A DNA stretch of 64,000 bases. Source: Owenia fusiformis (taxonomy: Eukaryota; Annelida; Polychaeta; Sabellida; Oweniidae). Below the pieces are notes generated by a model that was given only the letters and a program-made list of their open reading frames with translations, did no database searches and was not told the DNA's origin. A program made the translations under genes and the position numbers. Positions 2,659-59,300 of this stretch are shown here, one piece after another. The stretch lies in contig CAIIXF020000007.1 in assembly GCA_903813345.2 (NCBI GenBank), forward strand, positions 14,862,714 through 14,926,713, in the 5' to 3' direction. Within the stretch, counting starts at the first letter, position 1. Every line of letters begins with the position of its first letter.

Positions 2659-5600
2659 GTGAGTAAAGTGTAGGACACGAGTCTATGACGGAATGTACTA
2701 AAAACCCTTCGACCTACGACCCTTCGACCCTACGACTTACTGGGTGTCAAGAATTTTTGGAATATATTTTATTGAAAAACCATTTGACCTCTGATTTCCC
2801 AGTCCAGTTTACTAAATGATTACGTATAGTTCCAACTTGAGCTCCCTGTGCACGCAAATACGCATTTTACCTGGTAATTGTCAAGCAAAAATGTTTCAGT
2901 AGAAAAATTTCTAAAAAAGATCGTCTACACAGCAAAAATACGAACGCCGAAAAAAAACGTACGCATTTCGTTCGGACTTTTCACGCGAATTACGTATATG
3001 TCACGCATTGCGTTCGAAATTTTTCGTCCCTACCCCCTAGTATGTTGATACTCAAAAGCATGGCACATTGGCCAGGTGGCCATTTTGAAAAGTGGCCTCT
3101 ACAGTATTTTAAAGTCTTATTTTACTTTTTTACTAAAACTTGAAAAGTAGTTTCAAAAGTAGAGATCAAAAGTTCGATGGGATTTGCTCCACCTCGCGTT
3201 GCTGTTATCTAGTTCTGAAATGTTTCATATCTATGTCTAATAAATATAGTTGTATAGATGTGTTTGTAATAACCTTTATGCCCTTAAAATGTATATATTC
3301 AGGGGGGGGGCATTCGTGGGTTCAAGTGGACCACTCCATTGGCCAAATATTCTCTCAAAATCAGTACAATTTTTCACGATTCTGAGCATTTTCAAGATTT
3401 CTGGGCCACTTGAAAATTGTCAAATGTTCACCCCTTGATCCTTTTGAAAAACTTAAATTGGCAAAAGCTGGTTATACGAACCTAATATGACCTAGCTTGC
3501 AAGCTTTTTCTTGAGTTTGTGTTTATTTTCCTTGTACCCTTGCATGCTTTGGATTTTGTAGGATGCAAAACAAAGAATCTACTTATTTACAAAACTTATT
3601 TACATTTTTACAAACGAAATAGAAAAGCAAATATCATGAAATAACACACATAAGAAAGGCCACCATTTTCAAAATGGTTGCTCACTAACCAAGTTGTCAT
3701 CAGAAGAAGTAATATCCTTTTTTTTACTATTCACATACAAAATATGCACAAAATCGCTTCACTACTTTTCGAGTAAAATACTTTAGAATGGTGGCCATTT
3801 TTCAAAATGGCCACCTTCTACCAAAAGTGTCATTAGACAGTGTGCCGTGCTTATAGTATTCACATACCAAATATGAACAAAATCGCTCCACCACTTTTCG
3901 AGTTACAGTAAAATACGTTAAAATGGCGGCCATTTTTTAAAATGGCCACCTTCTACCAAAAGTGTCATTAGACAGTGTGCCATGCTTATTTTATTCACAT
4001 ACCAAATATGAACAAAATCGCTCCACTACTTTTCGAGTTATAGTAAAATATCTTAATATGGTGGCCATTTTGAAAAATGGCCGCCTTCTACCGAAAGTGT
4101 CATTAGACAGTGTGCCATGCTTATAGTATTCACAAACCAAATATGAACAAAATCGCTCCACTACTTTTTGAGTTATAGTAAAATATGTTAAAATGGCCGC
4201 CATTTTTCAAAATGGCCGCCTTCTACCGAAAGTGTCATTAGACAGTGTGCCATGCTTAAAGTATTCACAAACCAGATATGAACAAAATCACTCCACTACT
4301 TTTTGAGTTATAGTAAAATATGTTAAAATGGCAGCCATTTTTCAAAATGGCGGCCATTTTTCAAAATGGCTGCCTCCTACCAAAAGTGTCATTAGACAGT
4401 GGGCCATGCTTATGGATTTCTCATACCAAATATGAAGAAAATCGCTCCACTACTTCTTGAGTTACAGCAAAAATCGTAAATAATGAGAAAAGGCCGCCAT
4501 TTTTCAAGATGGCTGCCATGTGCTTCTTTAATATCTACATTTCTAGCTTTATCAATGTCCTATATCATTATTTTACATTTAAAACATAATGCTATTACAG
4601 TTTTACATATTGCAACTAAATTACTGTAAAATCGGCACTAAAATGGCCGCCATTTTTAAATGAGCGGCCATTTTGAAAATCGGTTTTCGAGCAGAACTTC
4701 TACCCCCATAGGGTATATGTGTACAAAATATACCAACGGTATTTGAGTTATTGCCTGGACGGACGGACGGACGGACGGACGGACGGACAGACGTACGTAC
4801 AGACGGACGGACGGACGGACGGAGGCGTTCCCTATATCCCTCCGAACTTCGTTCGATGGGATAATTAGAAGACCCAGTGTTTACTATATATACAATCTAA
4901 GTAATATTTCTTTTATACGTAGTATGTATACTTTGATAAACATTAATGATATACTAAATCCCAGGGAAGTATTTCATTCCAAAATTGTGGAGAAAATGCC
5001 GTTCAATCATGTGAATTTTCTGTCAATGTTACGAACCAATGAAGTCACCACCGAACTTGCATTCTTGGAAAGTCTAAATCGCTCGATGGAACACTCGATG
5101 GAACAATCGCTCGATGGGTCTACTTTCCCTCTTATTTTTGACCGGAAGTGTTTTCCTGACCTCGTTTTTTTACTGGCTGGATTTAGCCTTTAAACCTTCT
5201 TTACAATGATCTAATGATTACCTTAAATGAATTATAAACAATTTAAATTCCTATCCTCATTAGATCAGAATTCATTAGTTTTCTTTCCATTATTTGTTTA
5301 CTTCTGGTTTGCTGTTGAATAAACATTTCTTGTAAATATTGACGTAAGCATATCATAATAGTTGTTAGTTCAAAATGCAATCTGGACAATAGCAAATGTT
5401 TATGATTATAACTATTACATACGATGCAGATCATGATTTACCCACTAGTTTCCCAGTTTATAACTGCCTGTTGTCCTGCCGATAATATGTGAAACTTTTA
5501 CAAGATAATAGTTTGCAAAATATTACACGTCACTTGACGGACATGACGGCAATTGCCGTTATTATCTATTGACATGCGCACTTAAGCTTCATAATTTCAC

Positions 5601-32583: not shown

Positions 32584-33316
32584 CTAGAAAAACAGCAACT
32601 CCACGGAGTAGCAAATCCCACCGAACAAAACATATTATGCTTATTATAGCTAGAGTAAATGTTGAAATGTTTGTGCACTTTGTGATAGAAGCATGAAATT
32701 TGGCACAAAGTTGGTTTATAGTACCATTGTGAACTAGGCATCATCATAAAAAATTTGAACCAAATCCGTTCACTGGTATATGAGTTATCAAAGATTACGT
32801 TTTTTACGAAAATTGGCCGCCATCTTGAAATTCAGCCGCCATCTTGAGAATTATTTCTTGAACAGAGCTACTGTGTCCCTAGGCATAATCATATAAAATT
32901 TGAACCAAATCCGTTCAGTGGTATTTGATTTATCAAAGATTACATATTTTTACAAAAAATGGCCGCCATTTTGAAATTAAGCGGCCATCTTGAAAATCTC
33001 TTTTTGTGTGAAACTCCTTTGTCCCTAGGTATCAGCATATAAAATTTGAACCAAATCCCTCAACTTGTATTTGAGTTATCAACGATTACATTTTTTACGA
33101 AAAATGGCAGCCATTTTGAATTGAGCGGCCATATTGAAAATTCCTTCTCGAGCAGAGGTCCTACACTCATAAGGCATAAGCCTATAAAATTTGAACCAAA
33201 TCCGTCAACCGGTATTGGAGTTATCGCCCAGACACACGGACAAAAGAACGGATGGACGGACAGACGGACGGACGGCTTCTCTATATCCCCCTCCCCTCGA
33301 ACTTTGTTCGGTGGGA
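32584..33316 (-). mobile_element. Helitron/HINE-like element, complete short copy
   Basis: Read on the minus strand it starts A|TCCCACCGAACAAAGTTCG and ends with the hairpin ACTCCGTGGAGT (32598-32609), GCTGTTTTTCTAG and then T. Inside are about four units with AAAATGGCCGCCATTTT-like palindromes and AAATTTGAACCAAATCCGT, and a (GGAC)n run at 33240-33275. Confidence 0.8.
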
Positions 33317-42065: not shown

Positions 42066-43161
42066 CTAGAAAAACAGCAACTCCACGGAGTAGCAAATCC
42101 CACCGAACGGCAGTTGAGTTACCAAAGATTACGAAAATGAAAATGAAAAATGGCAGCCATTCTGAAGATCAGCCGCCATCTTAAAATTTTTTTCTCGAAC
42201 AGAGCTACTGTGTTTCTAGGCATCAGCATATAAAATTTGAACCAAATCTGTTCACTTGTATTAAGTTTTTTCTTATGAAAAATGGCTACCATTTTGAAAT
42301 TCAGCCGCCATCTTGAAAATGAGCCAAATCTGCTCACTGGTATTTGAGTTATCAAAGATTACGTTTTTTACGAAAAATGGCGTCCATTTTGAAATTCAGC
42401 CGCCATCTTGAAAATTCTTTCTCGAACAGATCTCCTTTGTCCCTAGGCATCATCATATAAAATTTGAGCCAAATCCGTTCACTGGTATTTGAGTTATCAA
42501 AGATTACCTTTTTTTTATGAAAAATGGCCGCCATTTTGAATATCAAGCCGCCATCTTGAAAATTCTTTCTTGAACAGATCTATTGTGTCCCTAGGCATTA
42601 TCATATAAAATTTGAGCCAAATCCGTTCACTGGTATTTGAGTTATCAAAGATTACCTTTTTTTTACGAAAAATGGCCGCTATTTTGAATATCAAGCCGCC
42701 ATCTTGGAAATTCTTTCTTGAACAGATCTATTGTGTCCCTAGGCATTATCATATAAAATTTGAGCCAAATCCGTTCACTGGTATTTGAGTTATCAAAGAT
42801 TAAGTTTTTTACGAAAAATGGCCGCCATTTTGAAATCTAGCCGCCATCTTGAAAATTTTTACTCGAACATATCTACTGTGTCCCTAGGCATCAGCATATA
42901 AAATTTGAATCAAATCCGCAAACTAGTATTTGAGTTATTAAAGATTACATTTTTTACGAAAAATGGCGGCCATTTTGAATTCAGTGGCCATATTGAAAAT
43001 TCCTTATCGAGCAGAGGTCCTATCTCATAAGGCATAAGTCTATAAGATTTGAATCAAATCCGTGAAACGGTATTTGAGTTATCGCCCGGACAAACAGACG
43101 GACGGACGGACGAACGGACGGACGGCTTTCCTATATCCCTCACGAACTTCGTTCGGTGGGA
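42066..43161 (-). mobile_element. Helitron/HINE-like element with 147-bp internal array
   Basis: Read on the minus strand: A|TCCCACCGAACGAAGTTCG at the start, and hairpin ACTCCGTGGAGT (42080-42091), GCTGTTTTTCTAG|T at the end. TATTTGAGTTAT(C/T) recurs at 42341, 42486, 42633, 42782 and 42927, a period of 145-149 bp. Each unit carries AAAATGGCCGCCATTTTGAA. A (GGAC)n run is at 43095-43125. This is the best-preserved copy in the window. Confidence 0.85.
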
Positions 43162-50270: not shown

Positions 50271-50372
50271 CTACATATCATCGTCATCATATGCACCCTT
50301 TCCTTTTCGCTTTTTGAAATCTGCTTGTATCATGTCCATATCTTCAGGTCGTTTACGTTTGAAGAATCCAAG
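50271..50372 (-). CDS. ITGA: Integrin last exon: GFFKR cytoplasmic tail and stop
   Basis: The acceptor is GTATTTTTCAG|CTT, then 33 codons and TAG at 50271-50273. It encodes LGFFKRKRPEDMDMIQADFK then KRKGKGAYDDDDM. GFFKR is the hallmark of integrin alpha tails: it clasps the beta tail at the inner membrane face and binds cytosolic regulators. The tail is short, with basic KKRKGKG followed by four Asp and a terminal Met. Confidence 0.97.
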   Translation of the reverse strand, partial: LGFFKRKRPEDMDMIQADFKKRKGKGAYDDDDM

Positions 50373-53300
50373 CTGAAAAATACAGAAATATCATATAAGT
50401 TTTAATAAACCAATCAGTAAACCATGGTACCTTATTGATTATGATGTCATTCTTACAGATTAAAGACAGATATAAGAGGAACTAACTGCTAAATTGCCTA
50501 CAAAGTGTAACATCATAAATAATAATTAAAGCAAATATACCCTAGTTTCCTTGATCTAGCAAAAAGATGTCAGGGACAAGGTCAATATATTTACAAATGC
50601 CGAAAAGTGTATAAAATTATATTTGCTTCATTGAAGGGGTAATACTCGTATATCTTGCTTAGGGGAGTTATGAAATGATGAAAATAATGAACTTGGTAAT
50701 GTCAACACACGAGGTAACTATGTGTTGACTGTAATAACTGGAGTATTTCATGATACTTAAAGCCTTGAAACTATAACACAGAGATTAACAAGGACAAAGA
50801 GCATTGACTGAACGTCTATAACTCATTTTCTCATTGCCCTAAGGGTCCTATCTCTATTAGACTTGGAAATTGGGATTTTCTTGACAATGTCCTTCTTAAG
50901 GACAAAATGTAATAAACAAGTGCAAATCAAGGGATCCGGATGAAAAAGTAATCCTTGGCCTTCGGGTCTTGAAATGCAATTTGTAAAAATGGTTTAATAT
51001 GTAATGTAAAGCAAGAGCATTGGTACATATTTGCTATAGGCTATGTAACAGTAATCTTTCCTTTGAGATGCAGGGTGGTTAAATTGACCCTTTTCCATAT
51101 AAATGGAAAATAGATGGCATCATGGGTATTGGTAGGGTGCAATAATGGTGCAAATCAATGTTGTTTTGATAGAAAATTACACACAAAATTCAAATATGCC
51201 ATCAAATAGAAGGAAACGTTAGTCTTTAATGGTTAAAAATGCAGATCTCCTAAAATCTCATTAAAAACGAGACTTTAACGAGATTTTAAAGCTATATGGA
51301 AAAAGGACCATTGAAAAATGTTTATTTTTAGTAATGCATATGTGGCTAACAAGACAATATTTTTGCAGTAGATATCTTAAAAAGTATTGTTGCAGTAGCC
51401 ATTTTCATTCAACTCTTCTGGGATGTTCTGTTGAAATAATTTCAGAAATGTCATATTTGTAACTCCAAAGAAGATGATTAAGACATGCAACATATATGAC
51501 TATTTTGTAATGAATGGGTTTGGATATTGGCAACATCCTTGTGGAAATCAATTCCATTGTGCATCTTCAGTTTTACAGACTTCATGGAGATATAATCTCC
51601 CCTGGGGTATCTACAACATCTTTAATATCTAATTAAAGCCTCATTGTACAAGAAAAACATGATAATGTACCAAGCACAGTGAATATATGAGCTAAAGTAG
51701 AGACAGGTTTATGGGAACTATTTAAAAATGTATTTCTAAGGGACAAAGAAGAAACAACTTTATTAAAAAGATGCGCAACAAACATCTCATAGGGAAATTT
51801 TCTCTATTTGTTTATTATGTTCTGAACTTTTAACACTCAATGGGGAAAAACAAATTCCAAATATTGTCAAACATAGTGGCACAACTTTCTTGATATTGAC
51901 AGAAATAATGAAGAATGGTTGGGTATGAGTAATAAGTGCTTGAAGTGAAAAAAGGTATGATTTACACAAAACATAAAATTGTAAAATATTCTTAAAAACC
52001 TGGGAAAATAGATTCAAGAAGTTTAATACTTGATCAACATTCCTGTAATCCTGAAAACATAAACAAGAACATAATAACATTGGAATCACAGGATGAGTGT
52101 GATTTGCATGTGACTGTAAGAGTAATGGTATGATTTTCAAATAAAGAATTACTATATAAGTAACTGAAGTTTAGGCCACTAGTGAAGACTTTTTCTTTCA
52201 TTAAAAGAAAGATGTTATGTTGACAATCCACTTATGTCTTTCAAAGCAATATAATTATCTTGAGCATTATTGTATTATTCTAGCTCTTTATTATTGCCAT
52301 TGTAAAATGTTATTTACATAATATCTTCGTTCAACATGACACTATCAGTCTGTCCTTTGTTCAACTTATAAGGTTTAGCAAACCGTCTATTTAGTCAATG
52401 ATGTTAATTAATTACATACATGTATATGTGAATGATGCATGTTGTAAACAACGCAATATGCGTGATGAGCATTTTCTACATCCTTCTTCAAAGGACTTCA
52501 TATATGCTTAAATTCACTATATACTTGTAAAATACCATTGCAGCAAGGATGATTTTCTGTACAATGAAAGCTTCTTATTTATTGTAATAGCATTTCTGAT
52601 TTGTATAGGATAGAGCCTGGGGATTTCATGTAGATTACAGTACTTTCTTACCAATTGTGTTTCATTTCAAGATAATGTAATACTGACCTACTTTTTAAAT
52701 CAGTATTTTTTAAAAAAAAAGATTGCTCCCAGCTGCCATTTAATAAGGTTTGTTATTGCCAAGTCTTGAGAATAGGCCTATTGAATTACTTCTCCAATGT
52801 AATTCTGAATGGCATTTACTGAGTGTGAAGAGTATCTGAGTAATATAAAATGTAAGCCAAGGAAAAGCCATCTTTCTAATAGCCAAACTCATGACAGAAT
52901 CATTGTGAAATTTTGAAAATACTTATTAATCCTACATTTGCATATAGGGACTGAAAGCCTGGTGACAGATATATGCACTTTTCCTTAGCCATTGTAAATA
53001 TTAGAACAAGCCTTACCTTCCACAAAACAATGACTAAAATGACGAGAAGTAAGACGCCACCTATTGCAGCTACTATGATGATCCAAAGTGGGATACCAGG
53101 GGGCTCTGCTATCTTTATATCAGGCTGGGCAGTTGTAATTGCCTAAAATATCAAACAAAATATCTGTATTATAGGTAGGTATTAGAGCATTTGCATATTT
53201 AGAATTAACAATTGTTGTATTTCATTTGAATTTCTTACAGAAGTACAAGTAGGTAGAGAACTTTTAAAGGCCTACTGGTACTAAGGTTTTGGTTTAATTA

Positions 53301-56300
53301 ACTTAATTAACTGACTACAGCTTTGATTCCCTTCAAGGGGATGATTAAAACCTGTTCATTGTGATAGTGTATAATATAATATGAGAAGATAGATTTAGCA
53401 ATCTTAAAGCTATTCTATTTATACCCTATATGTAGAGTTGTTGGATTAATAGAAGGCTGGAGGTACAGACACTCAACTCAATATTTTATTAGGTATTATT
53501 TAATTTGGTGAATTTTCCTTTTCAATTTGGTGGATTTTGGTTAAATTTAATTTCTGCAATCAATCTTGTATTTTTCTCAGCCATGTTAAACCTTTCAATC
53601 TAGTCAATTTACAACAGACATAACATGATTATTTCCTTAGATTGCTTCAATGGGAAATGAGTTAGCTCTATGTGAATGCACAATATGATAAAAACAGTGA
53701 TAAAAAGTCCTTGGGATTATATCAAGAAGACAAAATTAGTTTCCTCCTAAGCAGGTGTTCAGAGTCCGTACCTCCTTCTTCCCCCTGCTACAACCAATTT
53801 GGAAGCGCCCGTTTAAACTGAGTCACTTGATCTAATCATGCGACGATGACGTATTCATGTGTTATCAGTGATATCATTTTTGACCAATCATCTTTGCTTT
53901 TCCTTAAAACAATTACTTATTGAATATAAGGTCAACAATTTTGAAGTGGTGCATGAATTCCTAATGCATGTAATTTATACTGATAGTTTATTGTACAATA
54001 CACTGTATTGTAGTTCATAATCGGGGAAATGCTAACTGCTTATTGCAGGGGGAACGAGAAAGAAGATATTCTGGATATTGATACCCTGTGATCAGAGGAT
54101 GGTTTCCAACTAAACAGATTTATGATATTTTGACAAACTGATCTTAAATCCATAGCTAAAGCCCTGAATACATTCATGTGACAATAACACCAAGATATGT
54201 ACATGTAGGCCTTCTTCCATTTTTAACCAAGGGAGCTTTTGATTGAAACTTCTGTACAAAGTTACATCAAATAAACATTAAATGTTGATTTTCAACCAAG
54301 TTCAATATTCCAAGAGGTGAATGAACGAGATTTTCATTAAAACAACAGAAGAGTGAAATGATGACAAAGCACATGGTGATCAGACTGTGTGGGAACAGAG
54401 ATTAGGACATTGTGACACAGCTGGAGAAATGATGTCTTAGTCTTAGCAGTCAAATCAGAGTTAATAACCTTAACTGTTACAATTCTTAAGTTGCCTAAGA
54501 GTATTATTAGCAAGTTGTAAAAATATAACAAAAAAAGATCAAGTCAATATTCTGTGAGTAGTATGATTTAATCCGAAATAGCATGTCAAAAATTCCCATA
54601 CCAGAGCTCTGATATGAGACTTCTATAGAGTTTGTATCAGCTTTCATCTTCGCACACTCGGTTTTCATCACGTTCGATGGGAGCTGAGTGACGTCTGATT
54701 AATTCTTTTTGTTCATCCCAAATATCCAAAATCCAATTCTTCTCAAATTCATTGGAGGTGATATTGTTAGAATAAATAGGGAAAAGTATTTCTGCTTGGA
54801 AATGGATTAATAAGTGACTTTTATATTGATATTGTTTATTTTGACATACTGTCTTTAATTCTAAAATACACACATAATATGAGACCAATCTCAGACATAT
54901 TCATGGCACTAGCAGAAGATACCCTAAAGTGCCTCAGGTAAAATTTTCAAAGAATTTGGCTTATCTAATGCTGAAAAATGACTTGGCTGAAAAATGACTT
55001 GTCAAATTGCTTCTCCAACATACTTTGTATTTAATTTACTCCATCTTGGGAATATACACAAATCCTAATGTCAACCACTCATTGTATATGTATATTGTAT
55101 GTGTTTTGTGACATAAACAAATTGAAATTGAACAGTTCCTATTTTTTGTTAGAAACGCTATAAAGTTCTCATTGTGTTTCTCCTGTATGGGCTATTATGA
55201 CATGCTATCTTGAATTTCTTAGTACCCACATCACATTTACTTGATCTTTTTCATATTTCTATATATACCTTGCTTCCGATACTCTTGGGCTACTTTGTAC
55301 AAATATTCACTGAATTTGGTTCATCAGTTGCCGAGATGATACTTGTCAAATTTTTTTTTGGGACACCCGATATATCTGGCAATATTTTCACCATAACAGT
55401 ATATAAATTGCAACATATTCACCCTTATATGTAAGTGGCAATATTTTCGTCATAACAGTATATAAGTGGCAACATATTCACCCTAATAGTACGTGCATGG
55501 CAATATTATATTTATCACAAAAGTATCATAATGATTTACTTACATCAGCCATGTCATCATCTGTTTTATCTTGTTCTATGTTTAATGCTGGGTCTATAAA
55601 TAGGGTACCTCTGGAGCGTATTAATACTTGATCAACATTCCTGTAATCCTGAAAACATAAACAATAACATGGGAATCACGGGAGGAGTGTGAAAGAAATT
55701 TTAGTCCCATGTGGATCATTGACACCCTTGTCTGGCCCTGATTGGCTGACTTGGTCACGGTTCTCATGGAAAGATTTGTCCAGCTTGAAGAAAAAGCTAT
55801 TTTTTTCATAAAAACACTAAGAAAACTTCATGAATTATTTTTTAACTGTTTTGTTATACCAAAGAAAATTAACTTCTCTATGCAATGGATATATCATTTG
55901 CAGATAACCTTCACTTTGTCCAATGATGCTAGGAGTAAAAGCTATTGGAAACGGCGACAGAGTATCAAACTCTAAAATGTACTATTTCTTTTTTAACTTT
56001 TTAAGGACACATTACAGTGACATGATAATATTTATATATGTTTACAGCTCAAGTTTGAATGTATTAATGAGATCTAGATGTATTGAGTCTTTTTAATTTT
56101 TTAATAAAATCCTTAAATGTGCTATTCCACTATAAATCTTACCTCTACAAAGGTGCTATTCCACAATAAATCTTACCTCTAAAAAGGTGCTATTCCACTA
56201 TAAATCTTACCTCTAAAAAGGTGCTATTCCACAATAAATCTTACCTCTACAAAGGTGCTATTCCACAATAAATCTTACCTCTAAAAAGGTGCTATTCCAC

Positions 56301-59300
56301 TATAAATCTTACCTCTAAAAAGGTGCTATTCCACAATAAATCTTACCTCTACAAAGGTGCTATTCCACAATAAATCTTACCTCTACAAAGGTGCTATTCC
56401 ACAATAAATCTTACCTCTACAAAGGTGCTATTCCACAATAAATCTTACCTCTACAAAGGTGCTATTCCACAATAAATCTTACCTCTACAAAGGTGCTATT
56501 CCACAATAAATCTTACCTCTACAAAGGTGCTATTCCACTATAAATCTTACCTCTACAAAGGTGCTATTCCACAATAAATCTTACCTCTACAAAGGTGCTA
56601 TTCCACAATAAATCTTACCTCTACAAAGGTGCTATTCCACAATAAATCTTACCTCTACAAAGGTGCTATTCCACAATAAATCTTACCTCTACAAAGGTGC
56701 TATTCCACAATAAATCTTACCTCTACAAAGGTGCTATTCCACTATAAATCTTACCTCTACAAAGGTGCTATTCCACAATAAATCTTACCTCTACAAAGGT
56801 GCTATTCCACAATAAATCTTACCTCTACAAAGATGCTATTCCACTATAAATCTTACCTCTACAAAGGTGCTATTCCACAATAAATCTTACCTCTACAAAG
56901 GTGCTATTCCACTATAAATCTTACCTCTACAAAGGTGCTATTCCACTATAAATCTTACCTCTACAAAGGTGCTATTCCACTATAAATCTTACCTCTACAA
57001 AGGTGCTATTCCACAATAAATCTTACCTCTACAAAGGTGCTATTCCACAATAAATCTTACCTCTACAAAGGTGCTATTCCACAATCTAGCACGTATACGT
57101 ATAACAGCTGAATCCTGAGCCCTGAGAAGGTTTAGATCACAGAAAATCTTGAAACACTTAGCGGTACTGTTGCAAACCTGAAAGAACCAAAACAGTTCAA
57201 TGTATATCAATAAGTAAAATAAAAAATGCAACACAATTTGGGATTCTGTATCCAATTATACGTAAATATATGTACTTTATTCAAACAGTGCATCATTGTT
57301 CATCACACACCTATTGACGACATATTAGCAAATTTCATATTTTCTGTCAACGCATAAGCAACAATAATAATTGTAAATAGTTTGTGATAAAGTGATGTAA
57401 GGCTTTGACACAAGTGTTTTTAAAGTGGCTGAAACAGGCAACTGTGACATTGCAACATGTACAAAGTGTATGGAGTGCAAGTTGATCAACTGGGGATGTA
57501 GATTGATTGCCATGACTGTGTGGTATAAGTATTTTCATTTGATTGCCAGAACTATTCATTTTATCAACAGCTTTATTTTGAGCAGTGTTAATTTAATCAA
57601 CACTCTTAATATGAAATGCAGACTCTAAAGGAAATTGTTAATAAACCCCTTTTCTCATGACTTAAGCTCAATTTTGGTTTAGCCTTTTACTCTATGAGTA
57701 ATATCTTTGCCATGACATACCATATCAACACGTCGAATTTTCTGCTGTCCAACTGATATTTCCTTTGCCTTAACTACTGTTTCATATTTTGCCTCACGTT
57801 TTTTACGTCGTAAATTTTGTGCCTCTGTTGTATCCACTTCATACGGAGCTTCAGTAGCTCCATCTACCTCCACCGTAGTACCAGGATTCGACCCAACCTA
57901 TAAAAACATACAAATAATACAACTTCCAAATAAATTCATGTTCATCATGTGAATGGCATTCATGCTTTACCAATCCTGAACAAGATTAAAACCATGTCTC
58001 ACAATCCCAAGATTATATCTGATTTAATTGCCAACACAGACAAAGTCATGAATCAAGCCATGTGAGTTATTATTACATTTTTTAAATGACAAATATTGCC
58101 TTTTATTAAGCATGTGTTATCTTTAATTACAGATCAGCCTTAAAGCTCTACTTCGTTATATCACATGCTAATCGATTCCAATATGGTAAGTGAGCTTGCT
58201 CTAGAATTATTCAAGGATTTAATACACAATTTATGAAGCAGCAGATGTTTATTGCGTCATTCAAAATGATGCATTTATGATAATAATGTTTAATATGACA
58301 GTATTTTGCAGGAGATAAGTAGCAATGGTTTATATCAGAGATATAGACGTAACTATAGAAACTATATTATCACTATCAATTTTATCTAAAACATATCTAC
58401 AAGAAAAGAGATATCTACAAAACTACAGTACCCATAAATATTAGTAACTAAAACACATTATTTTACAGATAACAAAAATACAGAAATATGATTCAACATT
58501 AGAGAGATTTCGCACATAAGTAAAAGTACAACTTATACGTATACGTATACTTTAAAGGGTCATGTCGAACTATTATATTTACTAAAATCAATTTTAAATT
58601 GTACTTAATCGAACATAGCTATTCCCGGTATAGAAAAGCTCCATCAACCAGAGACTGTGAATGCACTGTCATCTGCACGTGTAGATTATGCACATTATAA
58701 TTAAATGCTTGCTTCCGTGTCCTAGTAGTTGTAGTGTATTATAAACACGATCCTTTAAAGTGAGTCATGGTCCTTTAAAGTTAGTCATTACATAAACAAG
58801 TTGATTATTTCAAAGTTTTCATGATCATTATAAGTTCAATGAACTTACAAAACCGTATATTTACGTAGATGATAAACGTATACAGTTGGATCTCCGTATA
58901 AAGCTTTACCTGCATGTGTGTGGAACAATTGACCGCAAGCATTTTTTAAAATTAATTGGCTGAGTAGGAACAGTATCCAATCAAATATTTAACCATCAAT
59001 TTGAAACACCAATCAAACCAGTAGGTTCTAGCGATTCCTGGAAACGACCCATTCAGTAGCTCAACAAATGGCATACAGGGTGTTTCATAACGAGCATCTC
59101 CAAAAAGTCAATTTGAGAAGAGATGGGTCTATAACATATGTACTATATTTGAGCCTATTTTATTCTAGACAAATACATTTGGATCAACTAAACATGCTAC
59201 AATTCAAGAAAGTACAAATGGCATCCCTTTGACCTTGATTTATTACAGTCCGAGAAGATCTTTCCTGACTAAAAGCCTACATTATGAAACACCTTGTACG

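Follow-up and report, generated by a model that had tools for sequence, protein, structure and literature searches.

The integrin alpha gene and its array-bearing exon

We have analysed a 64,000-nucleotide stretch (the window) of the genome of the annelid Owenia fusiformis (assembly GCA_903813345.2, contig CAIIXF020000007.1, positions 14,862,714 to 14,926,713), in which the 3′ part of an integrin alpha gene lies on the minus strand. One exon of this gene (57061..57177) is followed by a 34-bp minisatellite that spans its 5′ splice site (the donor) and runs into the intron. The exon has 39 codons (VCNST...WNSTFVE) belonging to the Pfam family PF20806; it is bordered upstream by TTCTTTCAG before 57177, and its 3′ end is in phase 0. 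The preceding intron is 543 nt in length, and the following intron, which contains the array, is 1412 nt.

Five exons of the gene, each starting in phase 0, were placed by their borders, phase and Pfam matches. The array-seeding exon lies between that encoding VGSNPG...RRVDM (57721..57897) and that encoding DYRNVDQ...DDDMAD (55544..55648; PF20806), with the acceptor TTATGTTTTCAG before 55648. These are followed by the transmembrane exon (AITTAQPD...VLWK; 53017..53142) and the final coding exon, which holds the GFFKR tail and the stop codon (50271..50372). On joining exons 57897-57721, 57177-57061 and 55648-55544 the product matches Integrin_A_Ig_3 at 8.4e-21, while the last four exons joined match Ig_3 (PF20806) at 3e-17 and the integrin alpha cytoplasmic region (PF00357) at 8.2e-6. 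Exons farther upstream match Ig_2 (PF20805) at 1.6e-5 and Ig_3 at 4e-7. The 3′ part of the gene thus has both the Ig-like (thigh/calf) domains and the GFFKR cytoplasmic motif of an integrin alpha chain. A query of two integrin exons matched only its own gene in the assembly, i.e. this is a single-copy stretch.

A row of 28 identical donors

Tandem Repeats Finder (TRF) places the array at 56115..57085 on the minus strand, with a period of 34, 28.6 copies, 97% matches and a score of 1837, the highest of the 45 rows for the window. The donor GTAAGATTTA was counted 28 times on this strand, the first at 57060 and the last at 56142, and all the steps are exactly 34 bp. The first copy (57051..57060) is the authentic exon-proximal donor, read directly, and joining there restores the protein domain. 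The remaining 27 are decoys (56133..57026; the first at 57026 and the last at 56142). All 28 lie in the context AGAG|GTAAGATTTA. A first-pass annotation, made from the sequence of the window, had proposed that the donor was amplified about 27 times, so that the spliceosome meets about 28 near-identical donors in a row; the count agrees on both points, and the donors are identical. The array accounts for 946 of the 1412 bases of the intron, and a sequence search of the 498-Mb assembly gave this one occurrence.

The repeat unit can be written TTGTGGAATAGCACCTTTGTAGAG|GTAAGATTTA, i.e. 24 exon bases plus 10 intron bases. The annotation had described the unit as exactly this, which stands as a description but not as a unique one. 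Unit sequence can be followed for 25 bases on the exon side and for 28 bases beyond the last donor, so the phase of the unit is not unique, and 24 + 10 is one among several equivalent descriptions.

Near-identical tandem units are difficult to assemble and a single assembly was examined, so the array or its copy number might have been made or collapsed by the assembler. Against this, the units comprise five variants (18, 5, 2, 2 and 1 of the 28) in irregular order, the window (GC fraction 0.34) contains no N, and the same architecture built from different units is found at other genes (below). We regard an artefact as the most improbable of the explanations considered here. The variation between units is found at 3 of the 34 positions, and the 14-mer AGAGGTAAGATTTA is invariant in all 28.

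Two other repeats in the window may be noted. The first, at 52023..52102 (minus strand), is 80 bp long and nearly copies the acceptor region of the intron that holds the array, with the intron end and the first codons, DYRNVDQVL (blastn identities of 98% over 50 bp and 90% over 30 bp). It sits in the intron after the transmembrane exon, and joining 57061 to it would leave that exon out. Three arrays with 135-148 bp units (3728-4351, 32734-33225 and 42320-43083; TRF) contain AAAATGG(C)CGCCATTTT-like palindromes and are apparently one repeat family.

Consequences of donor choice for the integrin

Splicing from the exon-proximal donor, with no added unit, gives WNSTFVE-DYRNVDQ, and residues 2-74 of the product align as a single segment with positions 141-214 of the calf-2 profile PF20806, the profile side being longer by one position. 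Translation with each number of added units from 1 to 27 always gives WNSTFVE-VRFIVE-stop, as the annotation had stated for the first added unit. The stop codon in this unit means that no longer integrin isoform is possible from the distal donors. The protein WNSTFVE-VRFIVE would end within the calf-2 (Ig_3) domain. From the general rule, decay would be the expected fate of such a messenger, because the stop precedes at least two exon junctions.

These properties might suit a regulated switch, in which distal donors would be used in some tissues to give truncated or decay-targeted integrin, so that the array tunes the level of the receptor. The early stop arises from any distal donor, and 28 of 28 donors are intact. 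The switch to a soluble receptor suggested in the annotation is not supported: the stop falls inside calf-2, and the decoy donors are not better conserved than the remainder of the unit (below).

Donor arrays at other genes

The genome was searched for three copies of AGGTAAG spaced 17-47 bp apart, using the reversed heptamer GAATGGA as the control, and for the corresponding triples of AGGTGAG and of the acceptor heptamer TTTGCAG. Genome-wide there were 1535 matches for AGGTAAG compared with 517 for its reversal, and 1282 compared with 319 for AGGTGAG. The ratio of raw matches was rejected as a measure of enrichment since long arrays dominate it (677/122 for TTTGCAG). The reversed acceptor heptamer is moreover an unfair control, as it contains CpG.

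Counts of loci were taken from the matches listed for contig C1 up to 50.8 Mb; the integrin array lies outside this region, on C7. There are 17 AGGTAAG loci among these matches, five of which belong to one dispersed purine-rich repeat. The five were left out and the other 12 fetched (L002-L013). Ten arrays start at the donor of a coding exon and run into the intron, i.e. 10 of the 17 listed and 10 of the 12 fetched. This and all the exon-end calls that follow were made by eye, unblinded and on a small sample, with open frames and acceptors as the guide. The two exceptions are L009, which looks non-coding, and L012, where the first donor of the array is 54 bp inside the intron.

Homology supports six of the ten. 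The matches are to Muted (BLOC1S5, L003; 5.9e-15), a carboxylesterase (3.5e-13), NIF phosphatase (4.3e-6), UreG (L007; 5.4e-7), DHX36 (0.003) and, after joining exons, ADAM17 (L005; 1.9e-15). L002 is likely to be a tetraspanin, with a match of 1.5e-5 after joining that lies below the Pfam cut-off. The coding status of L004, L008 and L013 is taken from their frames, the Pfam values for L008 (0.055 and 0.085) being below the cut-off. In the first 12 Mb of C1 there are five AGGTGAG loci among the matches listed; three are at coding exon ends, one matching Rieske (3.4e-8) and two having no Pfam match.

The arrays in these genes have about 4 to 33 donors each; that of L004, for example, comprises 17 units, each with 43 exon and 11 intron bases. 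Extrapolation from 10 arrays in 50.8 of 498 Mb gives about 98 AGGTAAG donor arrays in the genome (Poisson range 47-180). The integrin array is thus no singular accident but a member of a class that recurs in this genome.

Possible enrichment at donors, and arrays at acceptors

Single AGGTAAG sites provide a comparison. Twenty regions were hand-picked at rough intervals from 100 listed sites, and one (L036) was dropped as its site falls within another tandem array. Clear coding donors were found at 4 of the 19, compared with 10 of the 12 arrays (Fisher p 0.001, or p 0.024 on a generous count of 7 of 19). Pfam gave no match over its cut-off for any of the four single-site peptides, whose status is read from frames. 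A Fisher comparison of homology-supported cases (5/12 against 0/19) was discarded, having been computed before the single sites were searched.

The number of distinct loci listed in the same 50.8 Mb of C1 was 17 for AGGTAAG (12 fetched) compared with 11 for GAATGGA (about nine of them regular), while the numbers of single sites were 62,839 for AGGTAAG, 79,990 for GAATGGA and 92,478 for TTTGCAG. Donor-heptamer arrays are therefore not much commoner than the control, and minisatellites are frequent in this genome generally. It is rather that those minisatellites holding the donor heptamer sit mostly on real donors, as judged from these exon calls. A possible bias of the unit toward exon sequence was also considered and rejected, since the phase of the unit is ambiguous within the overlap of its left and right matches.

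Three of nine fetched TTTGCAG arrays (L016, L020 and L022) end at the start of a coding exon. The nine come from 11 loci listed up to 50.8 Mb, leaving out L004 and one irregular match. L016 (52 bp x 15), L020 (25 bp x 4) and L022 (54 bp x 9) span 3′ splice sites with the exon-proximal copy last, and are the mirror image of the donor arrays. The two exons tested gave weak Pfam matches, below the cut-off (a 2OG-oxygenase at 0.0026 for L016, and 0.049 for L022). The acceptor rates are not normalised, and we claim no asymmetry between donors and acceptors.

Donor choice and conservation across genes

For six genes the next exon, in the correct phase, was located beyond the array, and joining to it from the exon-proximal donor leaves no gap at the junction. 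The joined residues align with their families as 1-40 with 185-224 (tetraspanin), 1-71 with 3-73 (Muted), 4-107 with 103-206 (carboxylesterase), 1-72 with 89-160 (NIF phosphatase), 1-61 with 425-485 (ADAM17) and 1-82 with 41-123 (UreG), the last having a one-residue gap 13 residues past the junction. The UreG array (L007, G000:C1:26073700-26078800; about 18 units of 40 bp by TRF) has GAG|GTAGGA as its exon-proximal donor; GAG|GTAAGA, the copy that follows after 40 bp, is nearer to consensus.

Units that are open and keep the frame are found in L002, L004, L013 and L064. The units of L002, L004 and L064 (54, 54 and 33 bp respectively) would add amino-acid repeats if distal donors were used. Those of L003, L005, L007, L008, L010, L011, L065 and the integrin gene shift the frame or carry stops, and those of L006 and L063 are irregular or unassessed. 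Most of the assessed arrays thus shift the frame or stop translation, so that there the conserved protein requires the exon-proximal donor. The proposal of the first-pass annotation that the integrin array is a natural test of exon-proximal donor choice is strengthened by the presence of the same architecture at these other genes.

Pooled over eight arrays the mismatch is 1.9% in donors compared with 3.5% elsewhere. Tested against other 8-bp windows of the unit, however, the decoys of six arrays show no excess conservation (combined p 0.65), and selection keeping them was rejected on this basis. This lack of special conservation speaks for tolerance of the decoys and not for their use, and it counts against the regulated switch, as does the recurrence of the same architecture at unrelated genes.

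The window test bears in the same way on the idea that the row of donors is a selected platform for U1 binding, kept either against premature polyadenylation or for stronger recognition of the exon. The presence of as many as about 33 donors in an array, and the overrepresentation of donor arrays at coding donors in our small comparison, would be in keeping with such a platform. Yet many donors have been lost in older arrays (GTAAG: 8 of 13 in L005, 2 of 6 in L007 and 8 of 14 in L011), and similar arrays are present at acceptors. We consider a U1 platform very improbable.

Relation to known splice-site minisatellites

The name mirages was given to arrays of this kind in lancelet Adh; globins, troponin C and PGBD5 have them too, and both length variation and somatic instability are reported (PMC3087553, PMC3902484). 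The lancelet examples (Branchiostoma Adh3, BflGb6/BflGb9, troponin C and PGBD5) are likewise minisatellite-like duplications of an exon-intron boundary with AG/GT, either 5′ or 3′, and vary in length (PMC3087553). The integrin array has the structure of a mirage: its unit spans an exon-intron boundary (24 + 10 bases, 28 copies), the exon is a genuine coding one in a conserved gene, and the 34-bp length falls within the 10-72 bp range of Adh3 mirages. Unlike lancelet globin haplotypes, which have 3 and 6 units, it has 28 copies at a strict period, and lies in a different gene. All the published cases compared are from lancelets, with Adh3 among the affected loci. These traits are outside the definition; here the host is an annelid, and no array was found at the seven ADH exons matched. 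In one class III ADH intron of Owenia (G000:C9 33409334-33416382; L045, L043) one set of small tandem repeats is present in two copies with an offset of 4973 bp, a direct duplication of about 5 kb.

Human IFI6 (6-16, G1P3) reportedly has a splice-donor minisatellite with a 12-bp unit, described by Turri in 1995. It too gives a row of consensus donors at the end of an exon, but there splicing also uses two downstream units as donors and yields three mRNA species (PMC4526556); in the integrin gene the first extra unit carries a stop. This use of downstream units is a precedent for a regulated switch; lancelet mirages, however, are reported not to disturb splicing (PMC3087553, PMC3902484). On balance we consider that the integrin array is unlikely to be a switch.

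Minisatellites with units of about 30 bp also lie at exon-intron boundaries in human segmental-duplication genes, where recent paralogs can acquire new introns and splice variants through them (PMC2812944); in the integrin gene an intron already present was lengthened from the donor side, in a single-copy stretch. The Rogers model of intron gain similarly invokes tandem duplication of a segment with AG|GT, but the integrin array makes no new intron and leaves the acceptor side untouched (cited in PMC3087553). The parts of the C. elegans and earthworm minisatellite literature consulted contain no donor-spanning case. The literature searched, which left most subscription papers outside its scope, contains neither a genome-wide count of donor arrays nor the integrin case. 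The integrin structure itself is of a known type (mirages, IFI6). The class of donor arrays is unexpectedly large, and the regional count and the UreG case go beyond what is known.

Probable origin and significance of the array

We think it probable that this is a mirage-type minisatellite, and that the gene tolerates its 27 decoys through exon definition, with commitment of the nearest donor. The array may have started with a duplication of about 34 bp straddling the 5′ splice site, and then reached 28 copies by ordinary minisatellite turnover, through slippage or unequal exchange. Short direct matches probably seeded the duplications: at the closing point of the array, the exon end and the intron end share 10 bp in L002 and 12 bp in L008. 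When flanking introns are large, the splice sites closest across the exon are favoured; when they are short, preference goes to the sites closest across the intron (PMC9225289). The gene most likely tolerates the array because the exon, flanked by introns of 543 and 1412 nt, is recognised across itself. The donor nearest to the exon would thereby be committed, and the other 27 would be removed with the intron.

Several points weigh against this explanation. Use of the exon-proximal donor is predicted from conservation of the protein. A search of solved structures with the joined integrin stretch gave only weak integrin matches (the best 0.013), and the best of these, to integrin alpha-5, ends at residue 39, which is the junction, while matches to alpha-V end at 42. 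The class III ADH gene of this genome has no array at its seven matched exons. The employment of two downstream units as donors in IFI6 indicates that tolerance is not always complete (PMC4526556).

More tentatively, 5′ splice sites may be preferred places for minisatellites to originate or persist in this genome, so that about 100 genes would have rows of AGGTAAG donors that the spliceosome passes over, even when the proximal donor is less consensus-like, as in UreG. With exon calls made by eye and control loci numbering 11, we regard this as possible, but would judge the balance to be somewhat against it.

Choice among equal donors is usually studied with two-site constructs. These endogenous genes offer about 4 to 33 donors in a row; in some the units are open and in frame, in others they contain stops, and one gene has a proximal donor that is less consensus-like. 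The arrays as a class show that an intron can lengthen at its donor side with no obvious damage, and suggest that mirages exist beyond the lancelets in which they were described. If 5′ splice sites are indeed preferred, splice donors would be mutational hotspots in an animal other than a lancelet, and their arrays a natural, genome-scale experiment in exon definition.

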